DNA of 64,000 nucleotides from a bacterium (GTDB lineage Bacteria > Deinococcota > Deinococci > Deinococcales > Deinococcaceae): positions 1 to 64,000 of the forward strand of contig JAJZIR010000009.1 in assembly GCA_021810505.1 (NCBI GenBank), in the 5' to 3' direction. Each line of letters opens with the position of its first letter. Within the stretch, counting starts at the first letter, position 1. Shown piece by piece: positions 39,696-56,018 of the stretch. The position numbers and the translations under genes are program-made. Under the pieces are notes generated by a model. The model was not told the DNA's origin. It worked only from the letters and a program-made list of their open reading frames with translations, and made no database searches.

Positions 39696-41201
39696 TTAGC
39701 CCGTCCCCTGCACAGCAAAAATCCTCTCGTAGAGGTCCCTACCGAAGCTGGTGCTGAGCGGTTCACCGGGCCGGATCCGGTAGGAGCGCTGTCCCTCTGC
39801 ACCGCGCTCCGCTCGGAGAAACAGGACACCGGGGTCGTGTTCAGCCCAGAGCTGGCGGGCAAACTCGTAGAGGTGCGTCACGAAGAGCACCCGAACCCGG
39901 CGCTCTGAGAGGGCGTGCACCACTTGAAGGGCGATCAGAGAACCCTCGCGCTCGTTGGTCGCCGCGAAGGATTCGTTGCACAGCAGCATCGAGCCGGGAG
40001 CCAAGTGGTCGACGATCTGGCTGAAGCGGGCCACCTCCTCGTCGAACTTGCCGCGGCGCATCTCCGCATCCTCCTCCCTGCGGAAATGGCTGAACACCCC
40101 TTGGGCCAAGCTGGCGCTGAAGGAGGTGGCCGGTACCGGAAGACCGGCTTGCATCAGCAGTTGGGCCAGCCCGACGCTGCGCAGGAAGGTGGACTTCCCT
40201 CCCTGATTGGCGCCGGTGATGGTCACGAGCAGCGCGCCATCCCCTGCCAGCGCGTTGGGGACCGTCCCCGCCCGCAACCGGAGCAGCAGGTAGGCGTCGC
40301 GCAGATCGGTGAAGGAGAGGGCCCGCTCGGCCACCGGTCTGAGAAGCGGCGTGCAGCTGGGCGCACCGGACTCCTCCAGGAGGCGCTGCCAGCGGAGAGC
40401 GCCCAGGTAAAAAGCGCTCTCGTCGCGCAGAGCGGTAAAAAACGCGAGGACCTGATCCTGGTAATGGGACAAAAGCGTCGCCGAGCGCTCGATACCCCGG
40501 TCGCGCAGCTCGGAGAGAGCGTTGGCGCCGCCCTCATCGCGCTCGTCGATGGAAAAGCTGAGACCAGGGCTCTTGGCGAGCTTGCGCTGCAACCAGTTGC
40601 CCTGGGGTCTGGGGCGCTTGCGCGCCCGGTAGCGGCCGTACCCCCCGGTGCCGAGCTCAGCTGCCAGGAACAAGCCGGCTGGGAAAGCCAGCTCGGCGAG
40701 CAAAGCCTTGAGCTCGGCCAGGTAGCTTTCCGAAAACTCCTGCGTACAGGAAGCGAGGAAGCGGCACAGCCCCTCGGACTGGAGGCGGTCTAGGTAGCGG
40801 TCTGCCAGACCTCGGAGCTCCCCAAAAGCTCCCACGAAGATGTCCATGGCCTCCAGAGCGGCGTGCAAGCGCGCCGAGGGGTATTCGGTGAACACGGAGT
40901 GGAAAGTCTTGCGCTCGGCGGCGATCACCTGATTGGCCAGATCGTAGAGGGAGGTGATCAGCTCAGGGCAGCGCCGGGCGTCTTCCAGGACCGCTTGACG
41001 ATACGAGGCCGCCTGCAGGTCCGGTTCGGCCGCCGAGGACAACACCGCCTGGCGGAGGGAGGCGAGAATCTGAGCGTCACCTCCAGCCATCTCCTCCAAG
41101 AGCGCGGCGAGCTCTAGGTCGCGCAGCAGGTCCTCGGACCCCCAAGGGAGCTCGGCTTTCGGCAAGAGGTCACGGCTCGGAGACAGCAGTCTTGGCCTCA
41201 C
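39696..41201 (-). CDS. MutS-family ATPase B (last gene of fluoride operon)
   Basis: A 501-residue protein with only the core (lever/clamp-like helices) and the C-terminal ABC ATPase of MutS; the mismatch-recognition and connector domains are missing. Walker A is TITGANQGGKSTFLRSVG (near residue 329), then GVFSHFRREEDAEMRRGKFDEE, the signature-like segment, and SMLLCNESFAATNEREGSL as Walker B, with N-E where MutS has D-E. ILFVTHLYEFA-like H-loop follows (VLFVTHLYEFARQL). GTG 41201 overlaps ATPase A by four bases, so the two probably form a heterodimer. It differs from MutS1 and MutS2 (no Smr domain). Confidence 0.85.
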   Translation of the reverse strand: MRPRLLSPSRDLLPKAELPWGSEDLLRDLELAALLEEMAGGDAQILASLRQAVLSSAAEPDLQAASYRQAVLEDARRCPELITSLYDLANQVIAAERKTFHSVFTEYPSARLHAALEAMDIFVGAFGELRGLADRYLDRLQSEGLCRFLASCTQEFSESYLAELKALLAELAFPAGLFLAAELGTGGYGRYRARKRPRPQGNWLQRKLAKSPGLSFSIDERDEGGANALSELRDRGIERSATLLSHYQDQVLAFFTALRDESAFYLGALRWQRLLEESGAPSCTPLLRPVAERALSFTDLRDAYLLLRLRAGTVPNALAGDGALLVTITGANQGGKSTFLRSVGLAQLLMQAGLPVPATSFSASLAQGVFSHFRREEDAEMRRGKFDEEVARFSQIVDHLAPGSMLLCNESFAATNEREGSLIALQVVHALSERRVRVLFVTHLYEFARQLWAEHDPGVLFLRAERGAEGQRSYRIRPGEPLSTSFGRDLYERIFAVQGTG

Positions 41202-42739
41202 GGCGCCACCCGCTTGAGGATCCAGTCCCCCGTGATCCGGTGGCGCTCGGCGACCGAGAGGGCCAGGGAGCGCCCATCGGCCGGCCGGCGCAGGATCTTG
41301 AAGGTCCTCCGCAGCGGCTGCTCCGGATCCAGCGCGCTCACCAGGCTCACCGTCCAGAGGCCTAAGGAGGTCAGCTCGTCGACGAAGGTGACGTAAGCGC
41401 AGAGCGCTCCTATCCGGCCGATCTGCTCGAGAACTTTGGTTCCCAAAAAGAGGGCGTCCTCCAGGGCCGTCGAGCTGAAGACCTCGTTCAGCAGGATCAG
41501 GCTGCGCGGCGTCGCCGCGGAGAGGATGCGCGCCAGCCGCACCAGGTCGTCGTGGAGTTTTCCGGACAGGTCGGCAGTCTGCTCGCCGACTTCAAAGTGG
41601 GTGAAGACCCGGTCGGCCAGGAGCACCTCAGCTGAACTGCCTGGAACTGGACCGCCGAGGGCTGCCAGGTAGTGCAGCTGGCCGAGCAGCCGCAAGAAGG
41701 TGGTCTTCCCGCCCTGATTGGGTCCGGTGATCACCAGCACCCGCTCTCCGGGCTGCATCTGCAAGCTGTTGCGGACCACCGGCTGCCCCTCCGCCACCAG
41801 CTGCTGGGCTAGAGCGAGGTCGAAAGCCTCCTCGAAGGCCAAGTCGCTGGCTTCCGAGACCGCTGGGTAACAGAGCGGCAACTCGGCCCGCTGCAGCGGC
41901 GCCAGGTAGTTCAGGTACGCGGTAGCGAACAGCAGCTCGCGGCTTAAACGCTCCACAACCGGGTCGAGGTAAGCGCTATAGGTCTCCTGATAGCTGGCTA
42001 GCTCGGAGAAGACTTCGGGGTGGAGCTGGACGACCAGGTCCAGGATCTGCTCCTCGACGTGGTTCATCTGTAAGGCCCGGCTCCCCGCGGCCGCGGGGGG
42101 TGGCTCGGAGTCCGCTTCGAATTTCGCCAGAGTGGCCGAGACGGCCGCCGCCAGCTCCTCGCCGCCGGCACCCTTGCTGACCGTCACCCGCAAGCCGCGG
42201 ATACGCAGCTGGTAGCGGATGGAGTCCAGGTCCCCTCGGCGCAGGGCGCAATCCCCCAGCAGAGCCTGGTAGGCCGCCGAGGCGCGGTAAGCTCGCAGGT
42301 AACTGCGCAGGCCGAGCCAGGAAGCCGAGCTGAGCTGCAGCCCCTCTAGGCGAGCAGCCAAGGACTCCACCGCTTCCAGATACGAGGTAGTGGAGTTGAG
42401 AAACCAGATCCACCTCTGCGGGTCGCTGCGCAGGCGGGCTACCTGCTCCTGCCGCTGCCGCACCAACTCCATCGCAGCCAGGAAACCGTCCGCGGCTGCG
42501 CGCAGCTCAGGGCGCTCCAACTCCCTCAGGGCGCGTTGGCGATAGTCCACTGCGGCAATGCTGGTGAGTGGGGTGTAGAGCAGCTCGCGCAACCAAGGCT
42601 CAGGGTGCCCCGCGCAGATCCCGTCCACTATCTGGTCCAGGTTCAAGTCAGGAAAGCAGGAAGGCGGCGTGGCCGAGAGGGCTACCTGATTGGCAACCCA
42701 CAGCAGGCTCCCCGGCCAGGATGGGCTGGGAGAGCTCAT
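41198..42739 (-). CDS. MutS-family ATPase A
   Basis: A 513-residue paralogue of ATPase B. N-terminal half helical (REQ-rich, LARLEGLQLSSASWLGLRSY), C-terminal half ABC ATPase: VLVITGPNQGGKTTFLRLLG (Walker A, near residue 340), VFTHFEVGEQTADLSGKLHDD, SLILLNEVFSSTALEDALFL (Walker B, again N-E) and CAYVTFVDELTSL in place of the H-loop. ATG 42739 overlaps the metallophosphoesterase stop (ATGA). MutS-like genes are, from memory, among those originally listed downstream of the crcB (fluoride) RNA motif; here the riboswitch is about 9.6 kb upstream in the same operon. Substrate DNA structure unknown. Confidence 0.85.
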   Translation of the reverse strand: MSSPSPSWPGSLLWVANQVALSATPPSCFPDLNLDQIVDGICAGHPEPWLRELLYTPLTSIAAVDYRQRALRELERPELRAAADGFLAAMELVRQRQEQVARLRSDPQRWIWFLNSTTSYLEAVESLAARLEGLQLSSASWLGLRSYLRAYRASAAYQALLGDCALRRGDLDSIRYQLRIRGLRVTVSKGAGGEELAAAVSATLAKFEADSEPPPAAAGSRALQMNHVEEQILDLVVQLHPEVFSELASYQETYSAYLDPVVERLSRELLFATAYLNYLAPLQRAELPLCYPAVSEASDLAFEEAFDLALAQQLVAEGQPVVRNSLQMQPGERVLVITGPNQGGKTTFLRLLGQLHYLAALGGPVPGSSAEVLLADRVFTHFEVGEQTADLSGKLHDDLVRLARILSAATPRSLILLNEVFSSTALEDALFLGTKVLEQIGRIGALCAYVTFVDELTSLGLWTVSLVSALDPEQPLRRTFKILRRPADGRSLALSVAERHRITGDWILKRVAP

Positions 42740-43443
42740 GTGAGCCGAGCCGTCCGGTAAAGCCGGACCAACTCGTCCTGGACCGAGCCCGGTAACCCCC
42801 ACTCCCCCAGCGCGCGCAGGAGGGGTTGCCGGTCGTACTCAGCTCGCCGCAGAGAGAGCTCACCATCCTCCCAGGTGGCGTAGCAGGCCCGAGGGTCGCC
42901 GTCCAGCGGTTGACCTACCGAGCCAGGATTGACCACCCAAGCGTCTCCAGAGCGCCTGCGCAGGGGCAGGTGGGTATGGCCCAGCACCAGCAAGTCCGCT
43001 TCGGTAGCCGTCCGCTCGGCGAACAGGGTGGCTTCGGCATCCGGCTGCAGGCGGTAGTCGTATAAGGGATCCGCTTTGGAAGCGTGCACCATCTCGAGCT
43101 CGAGACCGGGCATCTGCCAAGTGAGTGCGAGAGGGAAAGACCGCAGGAAACGCAGCTGCGAGGGGTCCAACCGGGCCTGGCTGCGGCCCAGCAGCTCGGC
43201 GGCCAGCCACGCCTTGCTGGGGGCGGCCTGGGGATCGTCCCCCCAAACCAGAGCCTGGTCGTGATTGCCCCGGACGCAGCTGGCGGCCCGGCTCTGCAGC
43301 CAGGCCAGGACCTGCGCTGGCCTGGGACCGTAGTTGACCGCGTCCCCGGCGAAGAGCACCGCGTCGACCGGTCCAGCAGCACGCTCCACCGCCTCGAGCG
43401 CCCAGGGATTCCCGTGGGCGTCACTGATGATGAGCAGTCGCAT
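42736..43443 (-). CDS. YfcE/MJ0936-type metallophosphoesterase
   Basis: A 235-residue phosphoesterase. LIISDAHGNPWALEAVERA (DxH), VLFAGDAVNYGPRP (GDxxNYG), CVRGNHDQALVWG (GNHD) and VLGHTHLPLRRRSG plus VVNPGSVGQPLDGDP (GHTH and the terminal motif) give the two-metal site. Such enzymes cleave phosphodiesters or phosphomonoesters. ATG 43443 follows AGGAGG; the stop overlaps ATPase A. Its place between the coiled-coil protein and MutS-like pair suggests nucleotide or DNA-end processing in the fluoride operon, but that is inference. Confidence 0.9.
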   Translation of the reverse strand: MRLLIISDAHGNPWALEAVERAAGPVDAVLFAGDAVNYGPRPAQVLAWLQSRAASCVRGNHDQALVWGDDPQAAPSKAWLAAELLGRSQARLDPSQLRFLRSFPLALTWQMPGLELEMVHASKADPLYDYRLQPDAEATLFAERTATEADLLVLGHTHLPLRRRSGDAWVVNPGSVGQPLDGDPRACYATWEDGELSLRRAEYDRQPLLRALGEWGLPGSVQDELVRLYRTARLT

Positions 43444-43473: not shown

Positions 43474-44070
43474 TCAAGGCTGCGCTGGACCAGAGCCCCA
43501 CGCAGCCTGCAGCGCCAGCAACCGCTCCTCGATCCGGGTAAACAGAGGGGGTTCCGCTCCCAGAGTATCTGCCGCCGCGCGGTCTTCCGCCAGCGCGCGT
43601 TGGCGCAGCCGAGCCGCGCTGGCTAGCAGGCTGGTCGCCCTGCGGGCAGCCCAGCGACCTGAGTCAAGAGTCCACGGAACGAAGCGGCTGGCCTCCCAGG
43701 CCTCGCCCGCCAGGTCGGCCAACTCGCCGAGACCGGGCACGCCCAGCAGCTCAGCCTCCCTGCAGAAAGCCAGGGTGTCGTCGAGCAGGATTTCCCACCC
43801 AGAGACCCTTTGGTCGAGCTTGGAGAGCATCCGCAGCGCCGCGCTGGCCTCGGTGACAGCGGACTGAAGGTGGTATTCCAGGACCTGGCGGTCCCTCTGG
43901 CACTTGGTCAGCTGGTAGCGCAAGGTGGCATTTTCCTGGAACAGCGGCCCTGACTCCTGGACCAGGCGGTGGTTCTGTTCGGTCAGCCACTGCAGCTGAC
44001 GCTCCAGCTCAGCCAGGCGCTCCGGATCCGGAGCGCCCTCGGTACCCCGCCGGGGCCTACGCAGCATCAC
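43474..44070 (-). CDS. Coiled-coil protein of unknown function (fluoride operon)
   Basis: A 198-residue protein. Residues about 15-85 form a strong heptad pattern (ERLAELERQLQWLTEQNHRL, then ATLRYQLTKCQRDRQVLEYH), the rest is helical and alanine-rich with no motif I know. GTG 44070 overlaps the MFS stop; ATG 44067 is equally possible. It is 30 nt upstream of the metallophosphoesterase gene. It might be a scaffold for the membrane complex or the ATPases; nothing decides this. Confidence 0.7.
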   Translation of the reverse strand: MMLRRPRRGTEGAPDPERLAELERQLQWLTEQNHRLVQESGPLFQENATLRYQLTKCQRDRQVLEYHLQSAVTEASAALRMLSKLDQRVSGWEILLDDTLAFCREAELLGVPGLGELADLAGEAWEASRFVPWTLDSGRWAARRATSLLASAARLRQRALAEDRAAADTLGAEPPLFTRIEERLLALQAAWGSGPAQP

Positions 44071-45272
44071 TGACCCCCCGAGGCTGCCGCCCTGGGCGGA
44101 AGCGAGCGCAGGAAGCGGACCAGCAGGTAGATGGAGGCCAGCTCGGCGGCCAAGGAGAACGCCACCACCCCACCCACCCCCAGGGCGTCCAGGGCCCCCA
44201 GCATGACGCTCCCGATCAGCCAGGCGGCTCCGTACACCGAGTCGAACAGGCCGTAGGCCGCGCCGCGCTGCCCTTCGGGGATCAGGTTGGCCAGGCCGGA
44301 GCGCATCAGGCTCTCCTGCAGACCGAGAGCTGCCCCCCAGAGCACTGCCGCCAAGGCCAGCAGCCAGGCAGAGCCCGCCAGGAAGAAGAGCGGGGTCGCC
44401 AGCAGGCAGAGCGGCGGCAGGAAAGCGAGCGTCCTCAGGCCGAAGCGGTCGTAGGCCAAGCCAGCCAGATAGGCAGCCAGAGCGTCTGCACCCATGGCGA
44501 CAGCGAAGATCAGGGGGATGCCGTAGACCGGAACTAGGTGATCCACGCCCATGCGGTAGGCGACTAGCTGGAAGTGGGCGAAGCCGAGCACCACCACGGC
44601 CGAGAAGGCCAGGTAGGCGTAGAAGGCCGGCGGATACCCCCTGCGGAGCACTACCCTGGGTTTGGGCGGCGGCGCCGGCTGGCCGCGAGCCCGCACTAGG
44701 AAGGCCAGGGCCAGCAGAGCCGAGCCCAACAGGCCGGCGAAGCCGACGCGCAGGCCCCCCAGGGAAATCAACAGGGCGACCAGCACAGGGCCGATCAAGG
44801 CCCCCAGCTGGTCCAGGAGCTCGTGCAGGCCAAAGGCGCGGCCCTGGCCCACCTCTTCCCCGGCCCTGGCCAGGACTGCGTCTCTGGGCGGATTGCGGAC
44901 TCCCTTGCCCAACCTCTCGGCGAAGATGAGAGCGCTGGCGGTCCCGGCCCCGGAAGCCAGCGCCAGGGCCGGGACCGCCAGCAGGTTGATCGTGTAGCCC
45001 ACGGCCATCGCCAACCAGTGGCGCCCGCTGCGGTCGGCGTAGCGGCCCGAGAACCAGCGGACGCCGTAGCTGATGAATTCGCCGATCCCAGCGACCGCCC
45101 CTACCAGCAGCGGCCCGGCCCCCAGGGAGGCCAGGAAGGGGCCGGTGATGCTCCGCCCCCCCTCGTAGGTCATGTCGGCGAAGAGGCTGACCAGGCCGAT
45201 CCCGATGATGAACCGGGTGGCTACCCGCTTGCGCTGCTCCACAGCGCTTTTTTCCCGTGGATCAATGACCAT
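44067..45272 (-). CDS. MFS transporter of the fluoride operon
   Basis: A 401-residue, 12-TM major facilitator. N-terminal RFIIGIGLVSLFADMTYEGG, SITGPFLASLGAGPLLVGAV, and SGRYADRSGRHWLAMAVGYT (motif A, GxxxDRxGR) in loop 2-3; second-half loop YLAGLAYDRFGLRTLAFLPP. No substrate can be read from the sequence. ATG 45272 overlaps the antiporter-subunit stop by 11 nt, so it is translationally coupled to a membrane complex, which is unusual for MFS genes. Under fluoride control it could export fluoride, a fluorinated metabolite, or a metal-fluoride complex; this is speculation. Confidence 0.9.
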   Translation of the reverse strand: MVIDPREKSAVEQRKRVATRFIIGIGLVSLFADMTYEGGRSITGPFLASLGAGPLLVGAVAGIGEFISYGVRWFSGRYADRSGRHWLAMAVGYTINLLAVPALALASGAGTASALIFAERLGKGVRNPPRDAVLARAGEEVGQGRAFGLHELLDQLGALIGPVLVALLISLGGLRVGFAGLLGSALLALAFLVRARGQPAPPPKPRVVLRRGYPPAFYAYLAFSAVVVLGFAHFQLVAYRMGVDHLVPVYGIPLIFAVAMGADALAAYLAGLAYDRFGLRTLAFLPPLCLLATPLFFLAGSAWLLALAAVLWGAALGLQESLMRSGLANLIPEGQRGAAYGLFDSVYGAAWLIGSVMLGALDALGVGGVVAFSLAAELASIYLLVRFLRSLPPRAAASGGQ

Positions 45273-47148
45273 AGACCACCACCGCCCAGGCTAGGCCGAC
45301 CAGCAGGGCGGCCAGGATGTAGAGGGTGTAGAGGGTGACGTAACCGGCTTGAATCCGGGCAGCCAGGCGGATCAACAGGGTCGGGATGGACCCCACCGCC
45401 CGGTAGAGCTGATCCAGCCAGTCCCGAATCTCGGCCAGGTAGTGCCCCTGATCCAGACCCCAGAGCGGCCGGTAGAGGGCAGCGAAGACCTGGCGCAGCG
45501 AATTGGTGTAGCCGGTCCCGCTCACCTGGATCCGGCCGTGCTGCTCGGCTGAGGCGGCGACCCAGACCGGCACGATTCGCCTCCGCCTCCTAGCCAGCAA
45601 CCCCCAGAAGAGCAAAGTAACCGCCGGCAGGAAGACCCACAGAGCGGCCGGTGAGATCGCTGCGACGCTGGCGTAGGCCGGATTGACCTGCCAGTTGGCC
45701 CGGGCGACCAGCCTGGCCAACCGGACACCGTCCCCCAGCGCGCGGTCCAATACGGGAAAGACCGACCAGGGCAGCGCCGCAGCTGCCACCGAGAGCGCTA
45801 TCCCCAGGGCCGCCGACCAACGGGTCAACCCCGGCTCGGGGGCAGCCCGGGCAGCAGCCTCGCTGCGCGGGGCGCCGAGGAAACCGGTACCCAGAGCCTT
45901 GGTCGCCGCTACCAGGGCCGCGGCGCTGAGCAGCGCGAAGGCCGCGGCGCTGAGCAGCCAGACCAAGCGCACCGTGACACCCGGCAGGTGATAGCTCTGG
46001 AACAGCAGCTGGAACAGCAGCCACTCCCCCACGAAGCCCGAGAAGGGCGGCAGGGCGCCCAGACTGAGCAGGCCGGCGAAAGCGCCGGCAGTCGACCAGG
46101 GCAGGCGCCTAGCTAGGCCACCCATCCAGTCCAGTGAGCGTATCCCGGTGGCCTGCTCGGCGGCTCCGGCAGCCTGCAGCGCCAGGCCTTTATCCAGGAG
46201 GTGGTGCAGGCTCAGGTAGAGGGCCAGCAGCAGGCCGAGGTCCCCCAAGCGCAGCTCTCCGGCAGCCTGAAAGGTCAGGCCGGCACCCAGGGCCATCCAC
46301 ACGATCCCCCCGTTCTCTACCGTCGAGAAGGCCAACAGCCGCCGGAGCTCCGGCTCGGCCAGGCTCCGGAAGGCGGCGTACGTCGCTGTCAGCGCTCCCA
46401 GGACCAGAAGCACCGTTCCCCCGGCCACCCCCACTTTCAAGAAGCTGGTACAGAAGCGGAGCAGACCGTACACTGCGGCGATCCACATCGCCCCCGAATA
46501 GAGAACCGTCCCGCTGGACCTGGTAGCCTGGTAGGCATCCGAGACCCAGCCGGTCAGGGGCAGAGCGCCCAGCTTGGCCCCGAAACCGATCAGGACCAGA
46601 GCCAAGACTAGGGCGTTGGCCTGAGGGGCGGCCTCCAACGCCGCGAAGTTGGCGTGGCCCAACAGCAAGAAGGCGGCGAAGAGGGCGCCCACCCCCACCT
46701 CTAAAAACCCCGCCATCTTGGCGGCGCTCTGGCCATCCCGGTGCCCGGTCATCAGGTAAGCGGCCAGGCCCATCAGTTCCCAGCCGGCCAGGAAAGTCTC
46801 CGCTGTCCCGGCAGCGATGGTGAGCAGGACCCCGGCCAACAGCAGCGGCAGGCTTAGGCGTTCCAGCCGGCTGACCCCTCGCTCCGAAGCGGCAAAGAGC
46901 AGGGCAGGAACGCTGAGGGCGGCCATGACCAGGCTGACCCTGGATAGGGCGTCCAGGCGCAAGGCCAATTGAAAGGGCCCCAGGCCCCAGAGCGGCAGGC
47001 TCGCAGGGACCACCAGGCGGGCTAGCTCTCCGAACAGCAACAGCAGAGCGGCGATCGCCAGAGCCTCAGCCCAACGGCGCGCCGGCCAGAGCGCTCCGGC
47101 CAGAGTGCCAGCTAGCAGCAGGGCTAAGGCCATGAGCAGGAGAGTCAC
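45262..47148 (-). CDS. Hydrogenase-4 subunit B-like antiporter-type membrane subunit
   Basis: A 628-residue protein of the NuoL/M/N-HyfB family with about 14-16 TM segments. The TM5 glutamate is present in LAGWELMGLAAYLMTGH. The TM7-8 region reads GAKLGALPLTGWVSDAYQAT and RSSGTVLYSG, where the family has GxKxxxxPxHxWLPxAHxxAPSPVSAxxSG; the lysine is kept but the histidine and APSPVSA are lost. A C-terminal membrane stretch extends the protein. GTG 47148 overlaps the small-subunit stop (GTGA). Inferred: membrane proton/ion channel half that is partly modified. Confidence 0.88.
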   Translation of the reverse strand: MTLLLMALALLLAGTLAGALWPARRWAEALAIAALLLLFGELARLVVPASLPLWGLGPFQLALRLDALSRVSLVMAALSVPALLFAASERGVSRLERLSLPLLLAGVLLTIAAGTAETFLAGWELMGLAAYLMTGHRDGQSAAKMAGFLEVGVGALFAAFLLLGHANFAALEAAPQANALVLALVLIGFGAKLGALPLTGWVSDAYQATRSSGTVLYSGAMWIAAVYGLLRFCTSFLKVGVAGGTVLLVLGALTATYAAFRSLAEPELRRLLAFSTVENGGIVWMALGAGLTFQAAGELRLGDLGLLLALYLSLHHLLDKGLALQAAGAAEQATGIRSLDWMGGLARRLPWSTAGAFAGLLSLGALPPFSGFVGEWLLFQLLFQSYHLPGVTVRLVWLLSAAAFALLSAAALVAATKALGTGFLGAPRSEAAARAAPEPGLTRWSAALGIALSVAAAALPWSVFPVLDRALGDGVRLARLVARANWQVNPAYASVAAISPAALWVFLPAVTLLFWGLLARRRRRIVPVWVAASAEQHGRIQVSGTGYTNSLRQVFAALYRPLWGLDQGHYLAEIRDWLDQLYRAVGSIPTLLIRLAARIQAGYVTLYTLYILAALLVGLAWAVVVYGH

Positions 47149-47873
47149 GTGTCTACCACCTCCTTCCCCAACCAGAGCAGCAAGGACCGGAGCAGGGCCA
47201 GTGGGCTCGGCGGTGAGCCCGGAACGTAGAGATCGACCGGCAGGTACGCGTCCACCCCGCGCTCCGACCACAGGCCTCCGGAGACGGCGTCGGTGCCGTA
47301 GGCGACCACCCACTTGGGGGCCGGCATGGCTGCGTACACCTCAAGGAGTCCGGGCGACAGGGCCGCGGTCGGAGATCCGGTCACCAGCAGGACGTCGGCG
47401 TGCCTGGGGCTGGGCGTGAAGAAGATCCCCAGGCGGTGGAGGTCGTAGGCGGGGCTGACCAGCTGTTGCAGCTCCGACTCCTCTCCCCCATCGCTGCCGG
47501 CGTCAAAGTGCAGGAGGTGCAGGGAGCCGCGGAAGCGGGCCAGGGGGCCAGGGGCCGGTCCCAACAGCTCCGGGGCAATGAGCCCTGCTCGGGCCGTGGA
47601 GGCTACGTCGCAACGGCGCAGCATCGCGATCTCCTCTGGGCGGTGCCGGGCGCAGATCCCGCAGCCGATACAGCGGCCGTAGTCGATCCGCAGTTCCCCT
47701 TGGCTGGAAGCAGAGATCGCCGCAGTGGGGCAGCTAGCCGCCAGCTCAGCGCTGAACTCTGCTGCTCCCAGGGACGGCCAGGACATGCCCAGCTCCGCCG
47801 GCTCCGGCGGCCGCTTAGGGTAGCGGGTGGTCTGGCGACCAGCTCGTAGGCCTTGCCAAGTCCAAGACGGCAT
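47145..47873 (-). CDS. Ferredoxin-fused HyfI/NuoB-like small subunit lacking the proximal cluster
   Basis: A 242-residue fusion. Residues 40-85 are half of a bacterial ferredoxin: C48 in ASCPTAAIS and C68, C71, C74 in RCIGCGICARH. These are exactly the four ligands of one cluster of a 2[4Fe-4S] ferredoxin; the partner cluster's ligands are absent (R78 stands at the fourth position). Residues 110-242 match NuoB/HyfI, but the four proximal-cluster cysteines are D128 and E131 (GSDGGEE for GSCNGCE), D195 (YGTDAVSGG) and S220 (YVPGSPP). So this subunit carries one cluster only and cannot pass electrons by the normal route. ATG 47873 follows GAGGGGGAG. Confidence 0.88.
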   Translation of the reverse strand: MPSWTWQGLRAGRQTTRYPKRPPEPAELGMSWPSLGAAEFSAELAASCPTAAISASSQGELRIDYGRCIGCGICARHRPEEIAMLRRCDVASTARAGLIAPELLGPAPGPLARFRGSLHLLHFDAGSDGGEESELQQLVSPAYDLHRLGIFFTPSPRHADVLLVTGSPTAALSPGLLEVYAAMPAPKWVVAYGTDAVSGGLWSERGVDAYLPVDLYVPGSPPSPLALLRSLLLWLGKEVVDT

Positions 47874-47886
47874 CTCCCCCTCCTCT

Positions 47887-49236
47887 CTAGCGGTCCCAGG
47901 CGGCTTGTAGCGGGTGGAAACTCACCTGATTGATGATGTAGTCCATCTGACTGGAAGACATGCGCATCCCCTGCGCGAAGGCTGGCCAGAGCAGTTGCGA
48001 GGCCGGCCGCAGCGCCCAGTGGGGTTGGCCAGAAGCGTCGCAGCGCAGGTAGGCCAGAGTCTCCCCCCTGGGGCCCTCGGCGTAGCCCAGGGCCTCACTC
48101 CCTGGAGGTAACGGTCCGGGGGGATTGTGCACCGGGCCACCGACCCGCCGGAGCGCCGAGACGGCGCGCTGGATCAAGTCGAAGCTGATCCGCAGTTCCT
48201 CCGCGCGCACCCGGCAGCGCGCCAGCGCGTCCCCCTCCTCGTGGATCGGGACTCCTAGACCGAGCTCGGGGTAAGCCCCGTAGCCGGGATCTACCCGCAG
48301 GTCCTGACCCAGGCCGCTGGCCCGGGCGCTGGGACCTACTAGGCAAAAATCCAGAGCGCCTTGTCTGGATACGGCCCCGCTCCGCTCCAAGCGGTCGACA
48401 AAGAGCTCGGTCGCCAGCAAGCGGTCGAGGTAGGCCGCTGCCCGGCGCTGCAGAGCGTCCAGCTCGGCCAGCCAGCTGCCAGAGGGCAGCGGTGGTTCAG
48501 CCACCAACCCCCCCACCGCCACCAAGCCGCGCAGGAAGCGCGAAGCGCTCAGCTGTTCGGCTAGGCGCTGCACCCCCTCCTTCAAGGTGGCGGCCTGGGC
48601 CTCACCGACCCGCAGGGTAGCTGTCGCTGCCTGGCGGGCGAAGTAGTCGAGGTGGTTATAGAGGCGCTCCAGTTCGGCGAAGACCACCCGCCAGAGCTCC
48701 GCTCGGGGCGGGGGCACCGCCCCGGTCGCTGCTTCGGCTGCCCTAGCCACCGCCAGGCTATCGGCCACTGAGCTCAGGGCCGCGAGGCGTTCGGCGACCC
48801 TGGGCAGCCAGGCTAGGGGAATCTCTCCCAAGCGGCGCTCCACCCCCCGGCGCTTCAGGAAGGGCCTCAACTCCACGGCGGCGATCCGCTCCCCTCCGCT
48901 GACGATTCGGTGGAAGATGGCCTCCGACTGAGTCTCCCTGACCGGGCCGTAAGGGAAGGCGAACAGCTGCGGGTTGGAGTCCAGCAGGTCCCGCCCCTGG
49001 CCCTCCTGCGCCGAGAAGGCCAGGCCGTACCAGCGCTCAGCTTCCAGCTCGGCCCAGTACAGCGCCGGCCAGCTCTCCCCCAAGCGCGGCAGGGGCGGCT
49101 CGGCGCGGAGGACCAGATAACCGCCTTCCCGGTAAAGGACCTGCCGCACCTCCCCACCCAGGACGGCTAGCTGGGCAAATCTGGCGCGGCCGCGCCAGGC
49201 CGCGAGGTCTCCCGCCATGGGGATCAGCGTGCTCAC
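47887..49236 (-). CDS. HyfG/NuoD-like large subunit without NiFe ligands
   Basis: A 449-residue relative of group 4 NiFe-hydrogenase large subunits and NuoD. Recognisable blocks: the N-terminal HyfG-type domain (1-140), VELRPFLKRRGVERRLGEIP, ELWRVVFAELERLYNHLDYF (family E-x-E-R-L-x-N-H), GAYPELGLGVPIHEEGDALA with VRAEELRISFDLIQRAV, and a C-terminal PHWALRPASQ. The RxCGxC and DPCxxC nickel-iron motifs are replaced (ALSSVADSLAVARAAE, NQVSFHPLQAAWDR); the whole protein has three isolated cysteines. It resembles the Ehr (energy-converting-hydrogenase-related) class. GTG 49236 overlaps the F-like subunit stop. Confidence 0.88.
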   Translation of the reverse strand: MSTLIPMAGDLAAWRGRARFAQLAVLGGEVRQVLYREGGYLVLRAEPPLPRLGESWPALYWAELEAERWYGLAFSAQEGQGRDLLDSNPQLFAFPYGPVRETQSEAIFHRIVSGGERIAAVELRPFLKRRGVERRLGEIPLAWLPRVAERLAALSSVADSLAVARAAEAATGAVPPPRAELWRVVFAELERLYNHLDYFARQAATATLRVGEAQAATLKEGVQRLAEQLSASRFLRGLVAVGGLVAEPPLPSGSWLAELDALQRRAAAYLDRLLATELFVDRLERSGAVSRQGALDFCLVGPSARASGLGQDLRVDPGYGAYPELGLGVPIHEEGDALARCRVRAEELRISFDLIQRAVSALRRVGGPVHNPPGPLPPGSEALGYAEGPRGETLAYLRCDASGQPHWALRPASQLLWPAFAQGMRMSSSQMDYIINQVSFHPLQAAWDR

Positions 49237-50684
49237 TGGGGCACCGCCAGCAGCTGCCTGGCCAGCAGGTGCAGGAGTTGCTGGATCGGACCGGGAGTGA
49301 CGACCGAGAACAACAGGATCAGGGCGGCTCCGACCCCCAAGGGGACCAGGGCCAGCCAGGACGCGTCCTGGCTGGCCTCCCCGGCTGCTCGGCCCGGTCC
49401 GAAGATGACCGAGCTCCAACGCCCGACGAACAGCGCGAAGACCAGGACCAACAGGGCAATAAATAGCAGACCGAGCCAAGTACCCTGACCCAGGGCCGCC
49501 TGCGCGATCCCCAACTCGCTCGGAAACAGGTTGAGCGGCGGAGCTCCGGTGACCGCCCAGCCAGCCAGCAGGAGCACGAAGCCGGTGAACGGCATCCGCC
49601 CCAGCAGCCCACCGAGTTCCGAGAGGCGTTGGCCAAAGCGCTGCACTGCATTGCCGGCAGCGAAGAACAAGCTGGACTTGACCAGAGTGTGGTTGAGCAT
49701 CTGCAAGCCCAGCAGGTAGGGAGCGGACAGACCCAAGGCGAAGGCGATAATCCCCATGTGTTCGACGCTGGAGTAGGCCAGCAGGCGCTTGAGCCGGCTC
49801 TGGCTACCCAGGTTCAGGGCGGCGATCAGCAAGGAGAGCAAGCCAAAAAAGATAAGCAGTCCGTCCGGAAAGCTCGGCCCCAGGGTCACCCTGGCGATCT
49901 GCCAGAAGCGGGCCACTCCCAGGAAAGCGGTGTTGAGCAGGCAGCCCGAGAGCATCGCGCTGACCGGGGAAGGAGCCACCGCGTGGGCGTCGGGGAGCCA
50001 GGTGTGCATCGGCACCAAGCCGACCTTGGTGCCGTAGCCGATCACCGCCAGCACCAGTGCCAACGCCACCGGAGCCGGCGAGAAAGCCCTGGCGTGCGCG
50101 AGCAGGCTGGGCCAGTCGGGCGCGAAGACCTGGCCCAGGACTGGTACGGCGGCGTAGTAGAGCAAGATGGTCGCAGCGAAGGCCAGGGAGACCCCTACGG
50201 TCACGACGATCACATACTTCCAGGCTCCCTCCAAAGCCTCCGGGCTGCGGTCGAAAGCGACCAACAGCGAGGACGTGAGAGTAGTGAGCTCGATCAGCAC
50301 CCAGTAGAGGGCCAGATTGGTGAACAGCGGGGCTGCCAGCATGCTGGCAGAAAAAAGGGCCCACAGGGCGTAGTACTGGCGCAGGGGGCGCAGGGAGAGG
50401 CGGTGGGAGCCCGAGAAATAGCCGGCGCTATGCCAAGAGGACTGGAAGACCACGAAGGCGACCGTCCACAGGACCAAGGTGCCCAGGCCGTCCAAGCTGA
50501 CTGCCTGCCCCCACAAATTCAGCTGACCGCTGGCTAGGGCCGCGGCGCCGAGCAGCCCGGCGAGGACTAAGACCAAGGCGCCGACCGCGATGGCGCCCAC
50601 CCGGAGGGCCGACGCGTCTAGCCAACCGGCCAGCGCAGCCAGGGCCAGAGGGGCAGCGACCAGCGAGATCACCAGGGCGCTCAT
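49233..50684 (-). CDS. Hydrogenase-4 subunit F-like antiporter subunit
   Basis: A 483-residue, about 14-TM protein of the HyfF/NuoN/M family. Unlike the B-like subunit it keeps the full channel motif: YWVLIELTTLTSSLLVAF (TM5 Glu), YGTKVGLVPMHTWLPDAHAV and APSPVSAMLSG (TM7 Lys, TM8 His). It should therefore be competent for proton or cation movement. ATG 50684 overlaps the E-like stop (ATGA). Third gene of the fluoride operon. Confidence 0.92.
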   Translation of the reverse strand: MSALVISLVAAPLALAALAGWLDASALRVGAIAVGALVLVLAGLLGAAALASGQLNLWGQAVSLDGLGTLVLWTVAFVVFQSSWHSAGYFSGSHRLSLRPLRQYYALWALFSASMLAAPLFTNLALYWVLIELTTLTSSLLVAFDRSPEALEGAWKYVIVVTVGVSLAFAATILLYYAAVPVLGQVFAPDWPSLLAHARAFSPAPVALALVLAVIGYGTKVGLVPMHTWLPDAHAVAPSPVSAMLSGCLLNTAFLGVARFWQIARVTLGPSFPDGLLIFFGLLSLLIAALNLGSQSRLKRLLAYSSVEHMGIIAFALGLSAPYLLGLQMLNHTLVKSSLFFAAGNAVQRFGQRLSELGGLLGRMPFTGFVLLLAGWAVTGAPPLNLFPSELGIAQAALGQGTWLGLLFIALLVLVFALFVGRWSSVIFGPGRAAGEASQDASWLALVPLGVGAALILLFSVVTPGPIQQLLHLLARQLLAVPQ

Positions 50685-51331
50685 CCGCGCAGCTCCCGGG
50701 ACCAAGCCGCTGCGTCCCCCATGCGCTCGACCATCACCCGGGCCAGCAGGCCCACCACCACCACCAAGATCAGCAGATCGAAGAGGACGACCACCTCGTT
50801 GAACAGGGGAAAGCCGGGGATCAAACCTACCGCCAGGAGGAAAAGGCCGTTCTCGATCACCAAGAGGCCCAAGACCTGAGGAAAGGCCTCGGGTCGGCTA
50901 GAGGTGAGAAAAAAGCCGAGCAGGACCAGGGCTAAGCCAGTCGCGAAGGAAGACAGGACCAAAGGGCTCCCGGAAGGAAGCAGCCGAGCGGCGGCCAGGA
51001 TCGCGAACCCGATCAGCAGGGCACCGATCAGGACGGAAGAGGGGTTGCCGAGGATCAGCCGCTCCTCGCGGCGGGACGGCAAGGCCTCGGCGAAGCGCCG
51101 CAGCATCCAGGGAACCGCCAGGGCGCGCACCAGCAGGGTCACAGCCGCGGCCAGATAGAGCTCGGGGTGGTGCTCGAGCAGCGCCGCCGCCGCCGTGAAT
51201 AGGGCCAGGACCAGAGACTGGACCTGATAGGCGAGCAGCTGGGAGATGAAGAAGCGGGTCGCCAGGATCATCAGCGTGCTGGCCAGGAAGATGACCGCCC
51301 CCAACTCACCGACGTCGACGAGGGCGTTCAC
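50681..51331 (-). CDS. Hydrogenase-4 subunit E-like membrane protein
   Basis: A 216-residue protein with six to seven TM segments. The end VVVLFDLLILVVVVGLLARV and the EFPQxxGxLxxENG-like stretch (FPQVLGLLVIENGLFLLAVG) match HyfE, which combines a NuoK-like core with extra helices. The conserved glutamate in VIENG is the NuoK-type channel residue. GTG 51331 overlaps the C-like stop (GTGA). It would sit between the B/F antiporter subunits and the C-like anchor. Confidence 0.9.
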   Translation of the reverse strand: MNALVDVGELGAVIFLASTLMILATRFFISQLLAYQVQSLVLALFTAAAALLEHHPELYLAAAVTLLVRALAVPWMLRRFAEALPSRREERLILGNPSSVLIGALLIGFAILAAARLLPSGSPLVLSSFATGLALVLLGFFLTSSRPEAFPQVLGLLVIENGLFLLAVGLIPGFPLFNEVVVLFDLLILVVVVGLLARVMVERMGDAAAWSRELRG

Positions 51332-52284
51332 GCTTTCCCGCCGATCTGGGAGGCCAGGGTGGCCAGGACTGCGATCAGGAAGGTCAAGGAGAGGTATTCG
51401 GCGTAGCGGTAGTAGCGCAGCCTGGCCAAGCTAGTCTCCAGGACGGCGACCAGGGCGCCCAAGACCAGCATCTTGAGCAGCAAGCTGCCTTCTGCCAGCA
51501 GGAAAGCCAGGGCGCTAAAGTGGCTGGCCATCCCCCAAGGCAGGGCGAAGACATCGAGCAGGATCACCATCAAGAGGAACTGCTTGCTGTGGCCGGACCA
51601 AGAGAGCAGAGTCAGGTCGGGACCGCCGTACTCGACCAATCTGGCCTCCTCGATCATGCTGGCTTCGGTGGCGCCGCCGTGGTTCCCGATCGGGAGGCGA
51701 CCGCTATCCACCAGGAAAATCAGGAAAAAGGCCAGCAGGGCCAGCAGGTGGGTGGGGTTCAGGTAGCTCGCCCAGCTCTGCCGGTAAGCCGCGCCGGCCA
51801 CATAGGGGTAGGTGGCGTGCGCGAAGAGCGCCACCGAAACCAGCACCAGGACCAGGGCCGGTTCGACCAAAACGGTGAGCAAACCCCCGCGCCAGGCACC
51901 GATACCCCCATAACTCCCCCCAGGCTCTAGTCCGCCCAGGGTGATGCAGGTGCTGGAAAGGGCGAAGAGCATACCCCCGGCCAGCATGTCTCCCATCCAG
52001 GCCAGCGGCAGGGGAAAGGTAGTCAGGACCGGGATCAGGGTGGCGATCGCCGCCATGGTGGCCAGGCTCAGCGGAGGCGCGACCGCGTAGATCCAGCCAG
52101 CCGCGCCAGGCCGGAGCAACTCCTTGCCCCACCATTTGTACAGGTCACGGTAGGGCTGCCAGACCGACACGCCCTGCCTCCCCTCGATCCGGGCGACCAG
52201 CCAGGCGATCCAGCCCGAGATGAACGGCGAGATCGCCAGCATGGAGACGACTTGCAGGACCTGCCAGAGCACCGCCATCAGCAC
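51328..52284 (-). CDS. Hydrogenase-4 subunit C-like (NuoH-type) membrane anchor
   Basis: A 318-residue, eight-TM protein related to HyfC/HycD/NuoH. WLVARIEGRQGVSVWQPYRDLYKWWGK is the NuoH cytoplasmic loop 1 (RxxGRxG, QPxxDxxK), cut here into pieces of GRQGVSVWQPYRDLYKWWGK. EASMIEEARLVEYGGPDLTL is the acidic loop that couples to the peripheral arm. First gene after the fluoride riboswitch; GTG 52284 (ATG 52278 possible) lies 50 nt after the terminator T-tract. It should anchor the G/I subunits to the membrane. Confidence 0.93.
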   Translation of the reverse strand: MLMAVLWQVLQVVSMLAISPFISGWIAWLVARIEGRQGVSVWQPYRDLYKWWGKELLRPGAAGWIYAVAPPLSLATMAAIATLIPVLTTFPLPLAWMGDMLAGGMLFALSSTCITLGGLEPGGSYGGIGAWRGGLLTVLVEPALVLVLVSVALFAHATYPYVAGAAYRQSWASYLNPTHLLALLAFFLIFLVDSGRLPIGNHGGATEASMIEEARLVEYGGPDLTLLSWSGHSKQFLLMVILLDVFALPWGMASHFSALAFLLAEGSLLLKMLVLGALVAVLETSLARLRYYRYAEYLSLTFLIAVLATLASQIGGKA

Positions 52285-52333
52285 CGCACCCCAAGCCCTT
52301 TCGCCAGCACGGATGCCCCCTTTCCTGTAGGAA

Positions 52334-52370
52334 CAAAAAGATGGCTCCTACCCGTTCCGGTAGGAGCCAT
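52334..52370 (-). terminator. Intrinsic terminator = expression platform of the fluoride riboswitch
   Basis: On the minus strand, a 12-bp stem ATGGCTCCTACC/GGTAGGAGCCAT (52359-52370 with 52341-52352, 6-nt loop) is followed by C-TTTTT (52334-52340). The 5' arm is the last part of the aptamer, so folding of the aptamer and of the terminator exclude each other. Fluoride binding should therefore allow read-through into the hyfC-like gene. Confidence 0.9.
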
Positions 52371-52405
52371 TAGCCCGAAGGGCGGTTGTGGCGAGCTCCA
52401 TCGCC
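52359..52405 (-). promoter_or_regulatory. Fluoride riboswitch (crcB motif) aptamer
   Basis: Read on the minus strand, the 47-nt segment consists of GGCGATGGAGCTCGCC, then ACAACCGCCCTTCGGGC, then TAATGGCTCCTACC. This matches the crcB/fluoride aptamer: P2 GGCG/CGCC, P3 GCCC-TT-CGGGC, P1/pseudoknot GGAGC with GCTCC, and the invariant GATG and TAATG(G/A)C-CCTAC segments. It aligns nearly base for base with the Thermotoga petrophila fluoride aptamer as I remember it. Transcription from the TATACT at 52414-52419 would begin within a base or two of the aptamer 5' end. It controls the whole downstream operon (52284 to 39696). Confidence 0.93.
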
Positions 52406-52413
52406 TAGGGAGC

Positions 52414-52419
52414 AGTATA
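52414..52419 (-). promoter_or_regulatory. -10 element TATACT of the fluoride operon
   Basis: TATACT ends 8 nt before the aptamer, so the RNA should start at about 52406. A TTGACC -35 candidate (52439-52444, minus strand) lies 19 nt upstream and overlaps the stop codon of the second DUF190 gene. Confidence 0.7.
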
Positions 52420-52440: not shown

Positions 52441-52797
52441 TCAAGAGGTCCGTGCCTGGTAGAGCTCCACCTGAGCTCGCTCTAGCGTCACCATGCGGTC
52501 GGGCAAGTCCTCAGTCCAGGAGGAGCGCAAGAAGGCCTCCAGCCGGTCCCTGCGGTCGACCATCTCGATGACCACCGGCTGGAACTGCGGCCGAAACTCC
52601 AGGACGTCCAAAATGGTCTCGAAGCCGTGGCGACCAAAACCCGAAGTTCCGCGGAGCACGGTGGCGCCGGCCAGCCCAGCCTTCCTGGCCTCCTCTAGGA
52701 GATAGTCGGCCAGGGGGCGGCGGCCGAAGCGGTCACCGTCCAGGAGGTAGACGCGCAGCATGCTGCGCTCGCCCTCGAGGTCGAGCCCGCCGTTCAC
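52441..52797 (-). CDS. DUF190 protein (copy 2)
   Basis: A 118-residue PII-like ferredoxin-fold protein of the DUF190 family: MLRVYLLDGDRFGRRPLADY, LLEEARKAGLAGATVLRGTS, GFGRHGFETILDVL and PVVIEMVDRRDRLEAFL. DUF190 genes are known neighbours of crcB fluoride channel genes, where they may sense nucleotides; no crcB is seen here. GTG 52797 overlaps copy 1 by four bases; internal ATG at the MLRVYLL segment is an alternative start. The fluoride-operon promoter starts at its stop codon. Confidence 0.88.
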   Translation of the reverse strand: MNGGLDLEGERSMLRVYLLDGDRFGRRPLADYLLEEARKAGLAGATVLRGTSGFGRHGFETILDVLEFRPQFQPVVIEMVDRRDRLEAFLRSSWTEDLPDRMVTLERAQVELYQARTS

Positions 52798-53135
52798 TTC
52801 TTCCCCCGGTCGAGCACGAAGATGACCTCTCGGGTGATCAGCGCCCCGCCGGAGAGCAGCTCGGCCGCCGTGGAGAGGAAGGTCTCGATCCGCTGGGCGC
52901 TATCGACGAATTCGACGACCACCGGGAGGTCGCTGCTCATCCGGAACAGGCTGCTCTTGTGGATGACCGATTTGGCTCCAAAGCCGGCTGTGCCCTGCAG
53001 CACCGTACCCCCTCTGAGGCCGCTATCTCTGGCCTTCCTGAGCAGTAGGTCCGAAACCGGTTCTCCGTGCAGGCGATCGGAGTGGCCCAGGAAGATCCTG
53101 AGCAACTCCTCCTGCCGCCAGACCAGATCTCGCAT
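52794..53135 (-). CDS. DUF190 protein (copy 1)
   Basis: A 113-residue paralogue of the next gene with the family pattern ELLRIFLGHSDRLHGEPVSD, LLLRKARDSGLRGGTVLQGT, AGFGAKSVIHKSSLFRMSSD and LPVVVEFVDSAQRIETFLST. It resembles PII signalling proteins in fold. It starts 23 nt after the etfA stop, so it probably belongs to the acyl-CoA dehydrogenase/ETF transcript. Having two paralogues suggests a heteromer. Confidence 0.88.
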   Translation of the reverse strand: MRDLVWRQEELLRIFLGHSDRLHGEPVSDLLLRKARDSGLRGGTVLQGTAGFGAKSVIHKSSLFRMSSDLPVVVEFVDSAQRIETFLSTAAELLSGGALITREVIFVLDRGKK

Positions 53136-53158: not shown

Positions 53159-54112
53159 TCAGTCTCTGCGCCCCCGCAGAGCCTGGATCAGGGCAGGCAC
53201 CACCTTGTGGAGGTCCCCGATCACGGCCAAGTCGCTGGACTTGACCATGGGGGCCTCCGGATCCTTGTTCACGGCCACGATGTAGCCGGACTTGTTCATC
53301 CCGGAGAGGTGTTGAACGGCGCCCGAAACGCCGATGGCCAGGTAGACCTTGGGCTGGACCGTTTGGCCGGTCTGGCCGACCTGCTCAGCGTAGGGGCGCC
53401 ACCCGGCGTCCACCACTGCGCGGGTCGCCCCTACGCCGGCTCCCAGCAGGTCGGCCAGCTCCTCGAGCATCGCGAAGGCCTCCTGGCTCCCCAGCCCCCG
53501 GCCACCCGTCACCACCACCTCGGCTTCGGACAGCGGGACGCGGCTGAGCTTCTGACCGACGAAGTCGCGTTCCTCCAGGGGAGAAGAGGTGGCCACCTCG
53601 AGCACTCGGACCTCAGCGGCGGGTACGCTCACCAGTTCAGCAGGGCTCACGCTTCCAGCTTTGACGCTGACCACTGCGGGGGGGTGGGTAGAGCGGCGCT
53701 GCCAGATCCGCCCGAGGTAGGCGTAGCAGGTGGCGCTGAGCTGCTGGCCGTCCAGCTGGAGTTCGGCGGCGTCTTCCAAGAGAGCCCAGCCGCGCTGAAC
53801 GGCCAATCTGGGGCTGTAGGAGCGCCCCAAACGGCCGGCTGGCAGCAGCAGCAGCTGGGCCTCCGCAGCCTGCAGGGCAGCTTCCGCAGCCTGCGCCGCC
53901 CTCTGGGGATCGGTGCTGGGTAACCCCTCCCCGCGCAGCAGCCAGAGCTGGTCCACGGCGCATCTGGCCTGATCCAGCAGGGGCTGTACCGGGTCTCCGA
54001 TCAGGAATCCGCCGAGCGGGGAATCTCCTGCCAGCTGCCGACCCAGGCTGACCAGCTCCAGGGAGGCGCGGCTCAAGCCCGCACCGGTACCATCTAGGGC
54101 CAGCAGGATCAT
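53159..54112 (-). CDS. etfA: Electron transfer flavoprotein alpha subunit
   Basis: A 317-residue flavoprotein. The C-terminal FAD domain has VVDAGWRPYAEQVGQTGQTV, YLAIGVSGAVQHLSGMNKSG and VAVNKDPEAPMVKSSDLAVI, the EtfA signature that holds FAD. VTGGRGLGSQEAFAMLEELA precedes it. With EtfB it passes electrons from acyl-CoA dehydrogenases to the quinone pool. ATG 54112 overlaps etfB by four bases. Spacing suggests one operon from 57182 to 52441. Confidence 0.95.
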   Translation of the reverse strand: MILLALDGTGAGLSRASLELVSLGRQLAGDSPLGGFLIGDPVQPLLDQARCAVDQLWLLRGEGLPSTDPQRAAQAAEAALQAAEAQLLLLPAGRLGRSYSPRLAVQRGWALLEDAAELQLDGQQLSATCYAYLGRIWQRRSTHPPAVVSVKAGSVSPAELVSVPAAEVRVLEVATSSPLEERDFVGQKLSRVPLSEAEVVVTGGRGLGSQEAFAMLEELADLLGAGVGATRAVVDAGWRPYAEQVGQTGQTVQPKVYLAIGVSGAVQHLSGMNKSGYIVAVNKDPEAPMVKSSDLAVIGDLHKVVPALIQALRGRRD

Positions 54113-54861
54113 AGGCGCACCTTGGCGGTCTGCTCCAGCCAGCTCAGCAGCTCAGCGGCGGCTTCCTGGGGGTCAGAGACCGCGATCCTCTGGCCCAACC
54201 TGGCCTTGGCCGCGCTGCCCTGGGCCACCAGCTGCCAGCCATCCGCTAGGGTCACTGGGATGGACTCGCTGCGGACCTCCTTGCTGCGGGAGCGGCGGAT
54301 GTTGGGCAAGGTGGGATAGCGCGGCTCGTTGAGCCCCTGCTGGGTAGTTACCACCGCCGGCAGGGCCACCTCGAAGGCGGCGCTCCCACCCTCGACGTCG
54401 TGGCGGCCGCGCAACACCCCGCCGTCTAGCTGCAGGGCGTGGCACCAACTCACCTGCGGCCAGCCCAGGCAAGCGGCGATGGCTGGCCCCAGAGCCTGGC
54501 TGTCCCAGTCCGACTGTTGGCTTCCGGTCAGAATCAAGTCGGCCTGCTCGTCCCTGGCCACCTCCGCCACCGCTCTGGCGACCGCCAGGGGGTCGGCGAG
54601 CTCGCCGACAAGAAGCCTGGCGCGGTCTAAACCCATGGCCAGGGCGGCGCGCAAGGTCTCCTCCAGAGCAGCTGCCCCGACCGCGACGGCGATCAGCTCG
54701 GCCTCCAAGCCGGCCTCTCTGAGCAGCAGGGCCTCCTCGACGGCGTACTCGTCCATACCGTCGAGGACCAAGCTGGCCCGGGAGAGGTCCAAATTGCCCT
54801 CCGACACTTCCAGGCGCGATTCCGCATCCGGAACCTGCCGCACCGCTACCAAGATCTTCAC
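54109..54861 (-). CDS. etfB: Electron transfer flavoprotein beta subunit
   Basis: A 250-residue protein: MKILVAVRQVPDAESRLEVS at the N-terminus, MDEYAVEEALLLREAG, DLILTGSQQSDWDSQALGPA (AMP/nucleotide loop) and LPAVVTTQQGLNEPRYPTLP, the EtfB recognition segment. It binds AMP (or FAD in bifurcating types) and docks dehydrogenases. I see no fused bifurcation feature. ATG 54861 lies 9 nt after the acyl-CoA dehydrogenase stop. Confidence 0.95.
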   Translation of the reverse strand: MKILVAVRQVPDAESRLEVSEGNLDLSRASLVLDGMDEYAVEEALLLREAGLEAELIAVAVGAAALEETLRAALAMGLDRARLLVGELADPLAVARAVAEVARDEQADLILTGSQQSDWDSQALGPAIAACLGWPQVSWCHALQLDGGVLRGRHDVEGGSAAFEVALPAVVTTQQGLNEPRYPTLPNIRRSRSKEVRSESIPVTLADGWQLVAQGSAAKARLGQRIAVSDPQEAAAELLSWLEQTAKVRL

Positions 54862-54870
54862 GGTTCCCCC

Positions 54871-56013: not shown

Positions 56014-56018
56014 CGCCC

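Follow-up and report, generated by a model that had tools for sequence, protein, structure and literature searches.

Described Systems and the Locus

Genes for mutS and formate hydrogen lyase were already among the crcB-motif genes reported by Weinberg et al. in 2010 (PMC2864571), and formate hydrogenlyase has been counted as fluoride-regulated since then, which a 2024 review (PMC11139923) connected with a shift to fermentation. A fluoride switch combined with several fluoride-response genes has been described in the FRM operon of Enterobacter cloacae (PMC5533749). The DNA analyzed here, a stretch of 64,000 nucleotides numbered 1-64,000 and referred to as the window, shows the same combination, whereas its operon has no pyrophosphatase, enolase, or crcB and adds a Hyf-like complex and a MutS-like gene pair. 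The switch is like the terminator type of the crcB-motif riboswitch (RF01734) in its full model, its pseudoknot strands, its overlapping terminator, and its position upstream of fluoride-response genes, but it differs in that it controls a Hyf-like operon, with the crcB gene of this genome being located on another contig, where no fluoride switch was found in the tested stretch around crcB.

The complex shares six homologous core subunits with the formate hydrogenlyase/hydrogenase-4 of E. coli, from which it differs in the lack of NiFe ligands, N2 ligands, and a formate dehydrogenase gene and in having hyfB last. With the Ehr complexes it has in common the group-4-like subunits, the antiporter modules, and the absence of Ni/Fe ligands; in contrast to these, the fluoride-linked complexes form a clade of their own, with fluoride riboswitches, a gene order of their own, and repeated loss of N2. 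HyfB and HyfF align with the MrpA/MrpD chains of the Mrp Na+/H+ antiporters, with the charged residues kept and antiport being putative. HyfC, HyfG, and HyfI are not known to have a counterpart in Mrp.

The reading favored here, with a probability of about two in three, is that of an ON switch in front of a redox-independent, fluoride-dedicated, ion-moving Hyf-like complex, which would not be a hydrogenase or a formate hydrogenlyase.

Table 1. Features at the fluoride switch of the window and in the genes on either side of it
Feature	Position	Strand	Basis and remarks
Second DUF190 protein	52794..53135	-	Pfam DUF190, 101 bits; solved relatives 2dcl, 1o51
DUF190 protein, just upstream of switch	52441..52797	-	Pfam DUF190, 72.6 bits
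-10 box TATACT	52414..52419	-	sequence; position common to other fluoride aptamers
Fluoride riboswitch aptamer RF01734	52354..52414	-	cmscan; P1 begins 52405
Intrinsic terminator, 12-bp stem, 6-nt loop, T5	52335..52370	-	terminator scan, fold; 5′ arm overlaps aptamer 3′ end
Possible 10-codon leader ORF, GTG...TGA, VLAKGLGVRC	52278..52310	-	after G-rich ribosome-binding site
hyfC/NuoH-like membrane subunit	51328..52284	-	Pfam NADHdh; start GTG 52284 or ATG 52278
hyfE-like membrane subunit	50681..51331	-	NCBIfam hydrogenase-4 membrane subunit, 51 bits, below cut-off
hyfF-like antiporter subunit	49233..50705	-	Proton_antipo_M
hyfG-like large subunit without NiFe ligands	47887..49218	-	Pfam Complex1_49kDa; likely start near 49218
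hyfI-like small subunit	47145..47873	-	Pfam Oxidored_q6
hyfB-like antiporter subunit, last of six	45262..47148	-	likely GTG start at 47148
MFS transporter	44067..45272	-	Pfam MFS_1; homologs beside other fluoride switches
Coiled-coil protein, 198 aa	43474..44070	-	homologs in other fluoride-switch loci
YfcE-like metallophosphoesterase	42736..43443	-	homologs in fluoride-switch loci
MutS-like ATPase A	41198..42742	-	only domain V recognized; homologs directly after fluoride switches
MutS-like ATPase B	39696..41201	-	paired with MutS-like ATPase A in other loci

The Fluoride Aptamer and Its Terminator

The first-pass annotation had read a 47-nt segment of the minus strand as a crcB/fluoride aptamer, expecting a strong hit of the Rfam model, and had taken the 3′ end of this segment for the 5′ arm of a terminator. 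Both proposals were borne out. In a cmscan search of the whole window, RF01734 matched 52414-52354 (-) over its full length (model 1-64) at 54.5 bits (E 2.4e-12; Rfam gathering score of 34 bits), with the E-value being 1.5e-14 when only 401 bases were used as input, and this is the single copy in the 2.31-Mb, 97.9%-complete genome searched. In minus-strand direction, 8 nt (GCTCCCTA) separate TATACT (52419-52414) from GGCGATGGAG..., which begins at 52405, and the 47-nt segment (52405-52359) ends in ATGGCTCCTACC, which is the terminator 5′ arm. The terminator (52370-52341) reads ATGGCTCCTACC-GGAACG-GGTAGGAGCCAT and is followed by CTTTTT, and exactly this stem, with 12 pairs of which 7 are GC, was returned by the terminator scan. 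None of 200 dinucleotide shuffles folds as stably as the leader itself (z = -4.0). The aptamer deviates from the Rfam consensus at one base (GGCUAAUG versus GGCUGAUG), and of the surveyed aptamers, 56 could be scored at this position, with 8 of these having an A.

In known fluoride aptamers, the pseudoknot is formed between a GGAG in the loop of P1 and a CUCC in the 3′ strand. The aptamer 3′ strand AUGGCUCCUACC doubles as the 5′ arm of the 12-bp terminator (52370-52341), so that the CUCC needed for the pseudoknot sits in this arm; the aptamer and terminator folds are therefore mutually exclusive, and the element is, for this reason, expected to be an ON switch. The element is a true fluoride-sensing RNA of the textbook kind, and the switch itself is ordinary; its ON direction in this organism is a prediction from the sequence. 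The ON-type layout that had been proposed in front of the HyfC/NuoH-like gene thus holds for the aptamer and the overlapping terminator, with the switching being predicted. A terminator platform common to all members of the clade described below was considered and rejected, as a simple stem search gave an overlapping stem followed by a T-rich tail for a part of the members only.

A Clade of Fluoride-Linked Hyf-like Complexes

A search of 390 genomes yielded 86 aptamer sites for a survey, in which the six-gene cassette was seen directly behind the switch in seven genomes besides that of the window. The clade comprises 13 complexes (the window, L019, L099, L112, L132, L140, L147, L149, L158, L169, L209, L210, and L211), seven of which were chosen by their riboswitch, while five were found by protein searches that made no use of the riboswitch and were then checked. 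A fluoride riboswitch is present at all 13 (12 above the Rfam cut-off and one just below), compared to none of the 40 relatives outside the clade.

A search of genome contigs with a single HyfC returned only L019, a Bacillota MAG with the order crcB pair, pyrophosphatase, switch (8867-8946), hyfCEFGIB (hyfC at 8968), and CLC gene. L169, found with a HyfE profile, has its RF01734 match immediately upstream of hyfC at 32.7 bits, just under the cut-off. HyfC tblastn matches on plasmids of Burkholderia multivorans, Mycobacterium branderi, and Caballeronia had 43-46% identity over 77-78% of the query, and the plasmid complexes of B. multivorans, M. branderi, and Caballeronia sp. SBC1 each have a fluoride switch. 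In M. branderi a NUDIX gene stands between the switch and hyfC; the Caballeronia complex (L211) is placed in the clade by the tree and the gene order, with the switch detected 237 nt before hyfC by a scan made in the same step. No fluoride switch was found in the scan of L212 (Cupriavidus), which falls outside the clade.

The clade is monophyletic with a support of 1.0 in both trees, which were built with FastTree only and in which it accounted first for 10 of 49 taxa and then for 13 of 53; the position of the window inside it is weakly supported (0.28). The gene order inside the clade is C-E-F-G-I-B, with hyfB last, as opposed to almost always B-C-E-F-G-I, with hyfB first, outside of it, and the DUF190-switch-hyfC order is common to B. 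multivorans and the window. As judged from these comparisons, the Hyf-like complex is part of a separate, fluoride-dedicated clade. In the set of papers that was searched, none connected fluoride riboswitches with hydrogenase-related complexes or with DUF190, which is not proof of absence.

The B. multivorans island that carries the Hyf-like cassette also has crcB, a CLC gene, enolase, pyrophosphatase, and the MutS pair. As delimited on the plasmid (L213, NZ_CP143553.1 180000-225000), it holds CLC, CrcB, two enolases, two pyrophosphatases, the MutS pair, the Hyf-like cassette, and a dynamin-like gene, and the stretch of it that was scanned (L209) has three fluoride riboswitches. On the M. branderi plasmid (L210/L214), four fluoride riboswitches lie within 6 kb; one of them precedes the NUDIX gene and the Hyf-like cassette, and another precedes a MutS-like pair.

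The N2 Cluster and the Membrane Arm

A different account of these complexes would be that of a redox-driven pump of the Ehr type, made only under fluoride, in which electrons pass from a ferredoxin-like or other donor via HyfI to quinone with coupled ion pumping. Ehr complexes are group-4 relatives without Ni/Fe ligands that are suspected of redox-coupled charge translocation (PMC6349859), and six of the 13 fluoride-linked complexes (L019, L132, L149, L158, L209, and L211) keep all four N2 ligands, which makes redox coupling possible in those six. The N2 cysteines are, however, lost in the other seven (the window, L099, L112, L140, L147, L169, and L210), with at least two losses on the tree. 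The HyfI of the window reads DEDS at the N2 columns, with all four cysteines lost, and the one four-Cys motif left would serve one peripheral cluster with no path onward. In L112, L140, L147, and L169, HyfI has 0-2 cysteines and both HyfI and HyfG are shortened, to about 150-160 and about 400 residues, respectively, which leaves no path for electrons; the membrane arm has nonetheless been kept.

The membrane residues were compared in the ten complexes other than the three plasmid ones. Glu139, Lys227, Lys306, His339, Lys343, and Glu397 of HyfF are invariant in 10/10 of these, and the TM5 Glu and TM7 Lys of HyfB are kept in 9/9, with the TM8 Lys of HyfB being variable (R, N); HyfF and HyfB thus have the conserved Glu/Lys of Mrp-type antiporter subunits. 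This pattern suggests that selection has preserved the ion path but not the redox path, and the redox-driven pump is regarded as unlikely.

Loss of N2 as a specific trait of the fluoride clade was rejected, since N2 is also lost in several non-fluoride relatives from the same order. The Hyf-like complexes L173, L178, L180-L183, L188, L192, and L199 have lost their N2 ligands and have no fluoride switch; redox-free Hyf-like complexes may be more general than the fluoride clade.

Promoter and RNA Start

A complete promoter had been claimed for the switch, with the RNA starting at the aptamer edge and almost no sequence being wasted. What stands of this is the -10 box, which matches the consensus at 5 of 6 positions and ends 8 nt before P1. 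The sole -35-like hexamer, TTGACC at 52444-52439 (-), is a poor one with a 19-nt spacer to the -10 box, and a standard sigma-70 promoter was rejected, as the scan (16-18-nt spacers) returned no full promoter at the switch. In a sample of 78 fluoride aptamers, with a box being counted at a -10 match of at least 5/6, 17 have one with its end 7 or 8 nt upstream of P1, and 20 have one with its end 4-12 nt upstream of P1 (shuffle mean 5.1, maximum 11). An RNA start at the aptamer edge is therefore plausible and fits a general habit of these switches, being a common trait and not peculiar to this locus, where the -35 is weak.

The failure to find a promoter with a 16-18-nt spacer would also agree with an element that is decayed or lacks a promoter of its own, with expression being set by the upstream acd-etf-DUF190 operon, the genes of which lie on the same strand and end at 52441, 27 nt before the aptamer match. 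Read-through from these genes into the switch is possible. The aptamer core and the 12-bp terminator are, however, intact, the -10 spacing is that of other switches, and a read-through RNA would pass the switch anyway, all of which leaves this alternative very improbable.

Just upstream of the DUF190 genes are etfA, etfB, and two acyl-CoA dehydrogenase genes (53159-57182 (-)). DUF190 genes were frequent neighbors of crcB and of fluoride switches in the aptamer-site survey; the tandem pair of the window (52441-53135) is outside the control of the switch and may have another promoter.

Genes of the Apparent Operon

Downstream of the switch follow hyfC, hyfE, hyfF, hyfG, hyfI, hyfB, and the genes for the MFS transporter, the coiled-coil protein, the phosphoesterase, and the MutS-like ATPases A and B, which overlap or nearly touch, and these 11 genes apparently form one fluoride-response operon of ~12.6 kb. 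Terminator-like sites number 14 on both strands, including that of the switch itself (shuffle mean 8.5), and several weak ones lie inside genes of the operon, for which reason we only infer a single transcript. The stop codon of the leader ORF overlaps the ATG of hyfC (TGATG), making translational coupling or a leader peptide possible.

MFS, phosphoesterase, DUF190, coiled-coil, and MutS-like genes also adjoin the fluoride switches of relatives in other arrangements. It could be proposed that the switch is real but is there chiefly for the MutS-like, MFS, and phosphoesterase genes, with the Hyf-like genes as passengers, given that the MutS-like pair, MFS, phosphoesterase, and DUF190 follow switches in many relatives with no Hyf cassette there. 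In L019 and seven further genomes, however, the Hyf cassette comes first after the switch with no MutS pair directly behind it, and a passenger role is very improbable.

Such a MutS-like ATPase pair, which has Walker A, stands immediately behind fluoride switches in many genomes. Against full-length MutS/MutS2 models, the products of 41198-42742 and 39696-41201 score 52-86 bits with cut-offs of 400-642, and only in domain V. The closest non-MutS NCBIfam model is KamC (72.6 bits, below cut-off), an ATPase that reactivates lysine 5,6-aminomutase; it is therefore conceivable that the pair rescues fluoride-inhibited enzymes rather than repairing DNA.

The NiFe Site

In the alignment of large subunits, the NiFe ligand columns are lost in all 13 clade members, with the window reading ASLA, as against CCCC in the true hydrogenases L170 and L208. 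HypD, a protein of NiFe-site maturation, was not found in the genome of the window, in G269, in G206, or in the L019 genome, and a search of ten genomes found no molybdopterin enzyme within the cassettes or directly next to them. The genome of the window has two molybdopterin matches, both on other contigs, and no associated formate dehydrogenase was found.

That the complex is a working formate hydrogenlyase, with fluoride shifting the metabolism to fermentation and formate being oxidized with H2 production, has the published naming of riboswitch-linked genes on its side (PMC2864571, PMC11139923), along with the best solved relatives of HyfB (E 5e-36), HyfC (E 5e-35), and HyfG (E 1e-28), which are the E. 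coli formate hydrogenlyase subunits 3 (7z0s_C), 4 (7z0s_D), and 5 (7z0s_E), but the loss of the NiFe ligands, the missing HypD, and cassettes without a formate dehydrogenase-type molybdopterin gene leave it next to no credibility. This identity was rejected on the ligand loss and the absence of HypD. As the ligands are lost in 13/13, the "formate hydrogenlyase" of Weinberg et al. and of the 2024 review is the wrong reading for these complexes, and the fermentation reading of the review (PMC11139923) misfits them for lack of NiFe ligands, HypD, and cassette molybdopterin enzymes; elsewhere, a fluoride switch may control a formate hydrogenlyase that is a true one.

NiFe loss was likewise rejected as a mark of the fluoride clade, as most non-fluoride relatives are also without NiFe ligands; like the N2 losses, it is therefore not specific to fluoride. 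The marks that hold for the clade are the riboswitch, the gene order, and monophyly.

Proposed Mechanism and Implications

In the model of a fluoride-induced ion-moving complex, the aptamer 3′ end would, without fluoride, be taken up by the strong terminator. Binding of Mg-fluoride would lock the pseudoknot and block the terminator, allowing the RNA polymerase to read into the 11-gene operon, the lead product of which would be a complex of six subunits (HyfC-E-F-G-I-B) related to complex I and formate hydrogenlyase. According to the 2024 review (PMC11139923), HF influx lowers the pH and the proton-motive force, and Na+/H+ antiporters come second in frequency among the riboswitch-linked classes. 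HF enters and dissociates, collapsing the cytoplasmic pH and the membrane potential that fluoride exporters need, as both known exporters depend on pH and proton-motive force. The complex would then translocate ions, through Mrp-like cation/proton exchange or proton movement, and so restore both. Its most likely function is that of a fluoride-induced, ion-translocating complex for pH and membrane potential without need for redox chemistry, with the ion, the direction of transport, and the redox independence being deduced from the sequences. Whether the family as a whole is a widespread branch of the complex I/hydrogenase superfamily, induced by fluoride and in part carried on plasmids, which has repeatedly discarded its redox centers and now acts as a redox-independent ion transporter, all under fluoride riboswitches, we would judge at even odds.

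What matters here is the target complex of the switch, a point that goes beyond the first-pass annotation. If the model is true, the "formate hydrogenlyase" of the fluoride regulon is a misannotation, the sequences instead pointing to a dedicated clade without a hydrogenase site, often without the last iron-sulfur cluster, and with the ion-path residues intact. Such a clade would make it simple to test whether membrane arms of the complex I type function independently of redox chemistry, and it would add a candidate mechanism of fluoride resistance, also plasmid-borne, beside CrcB and CLC-F.
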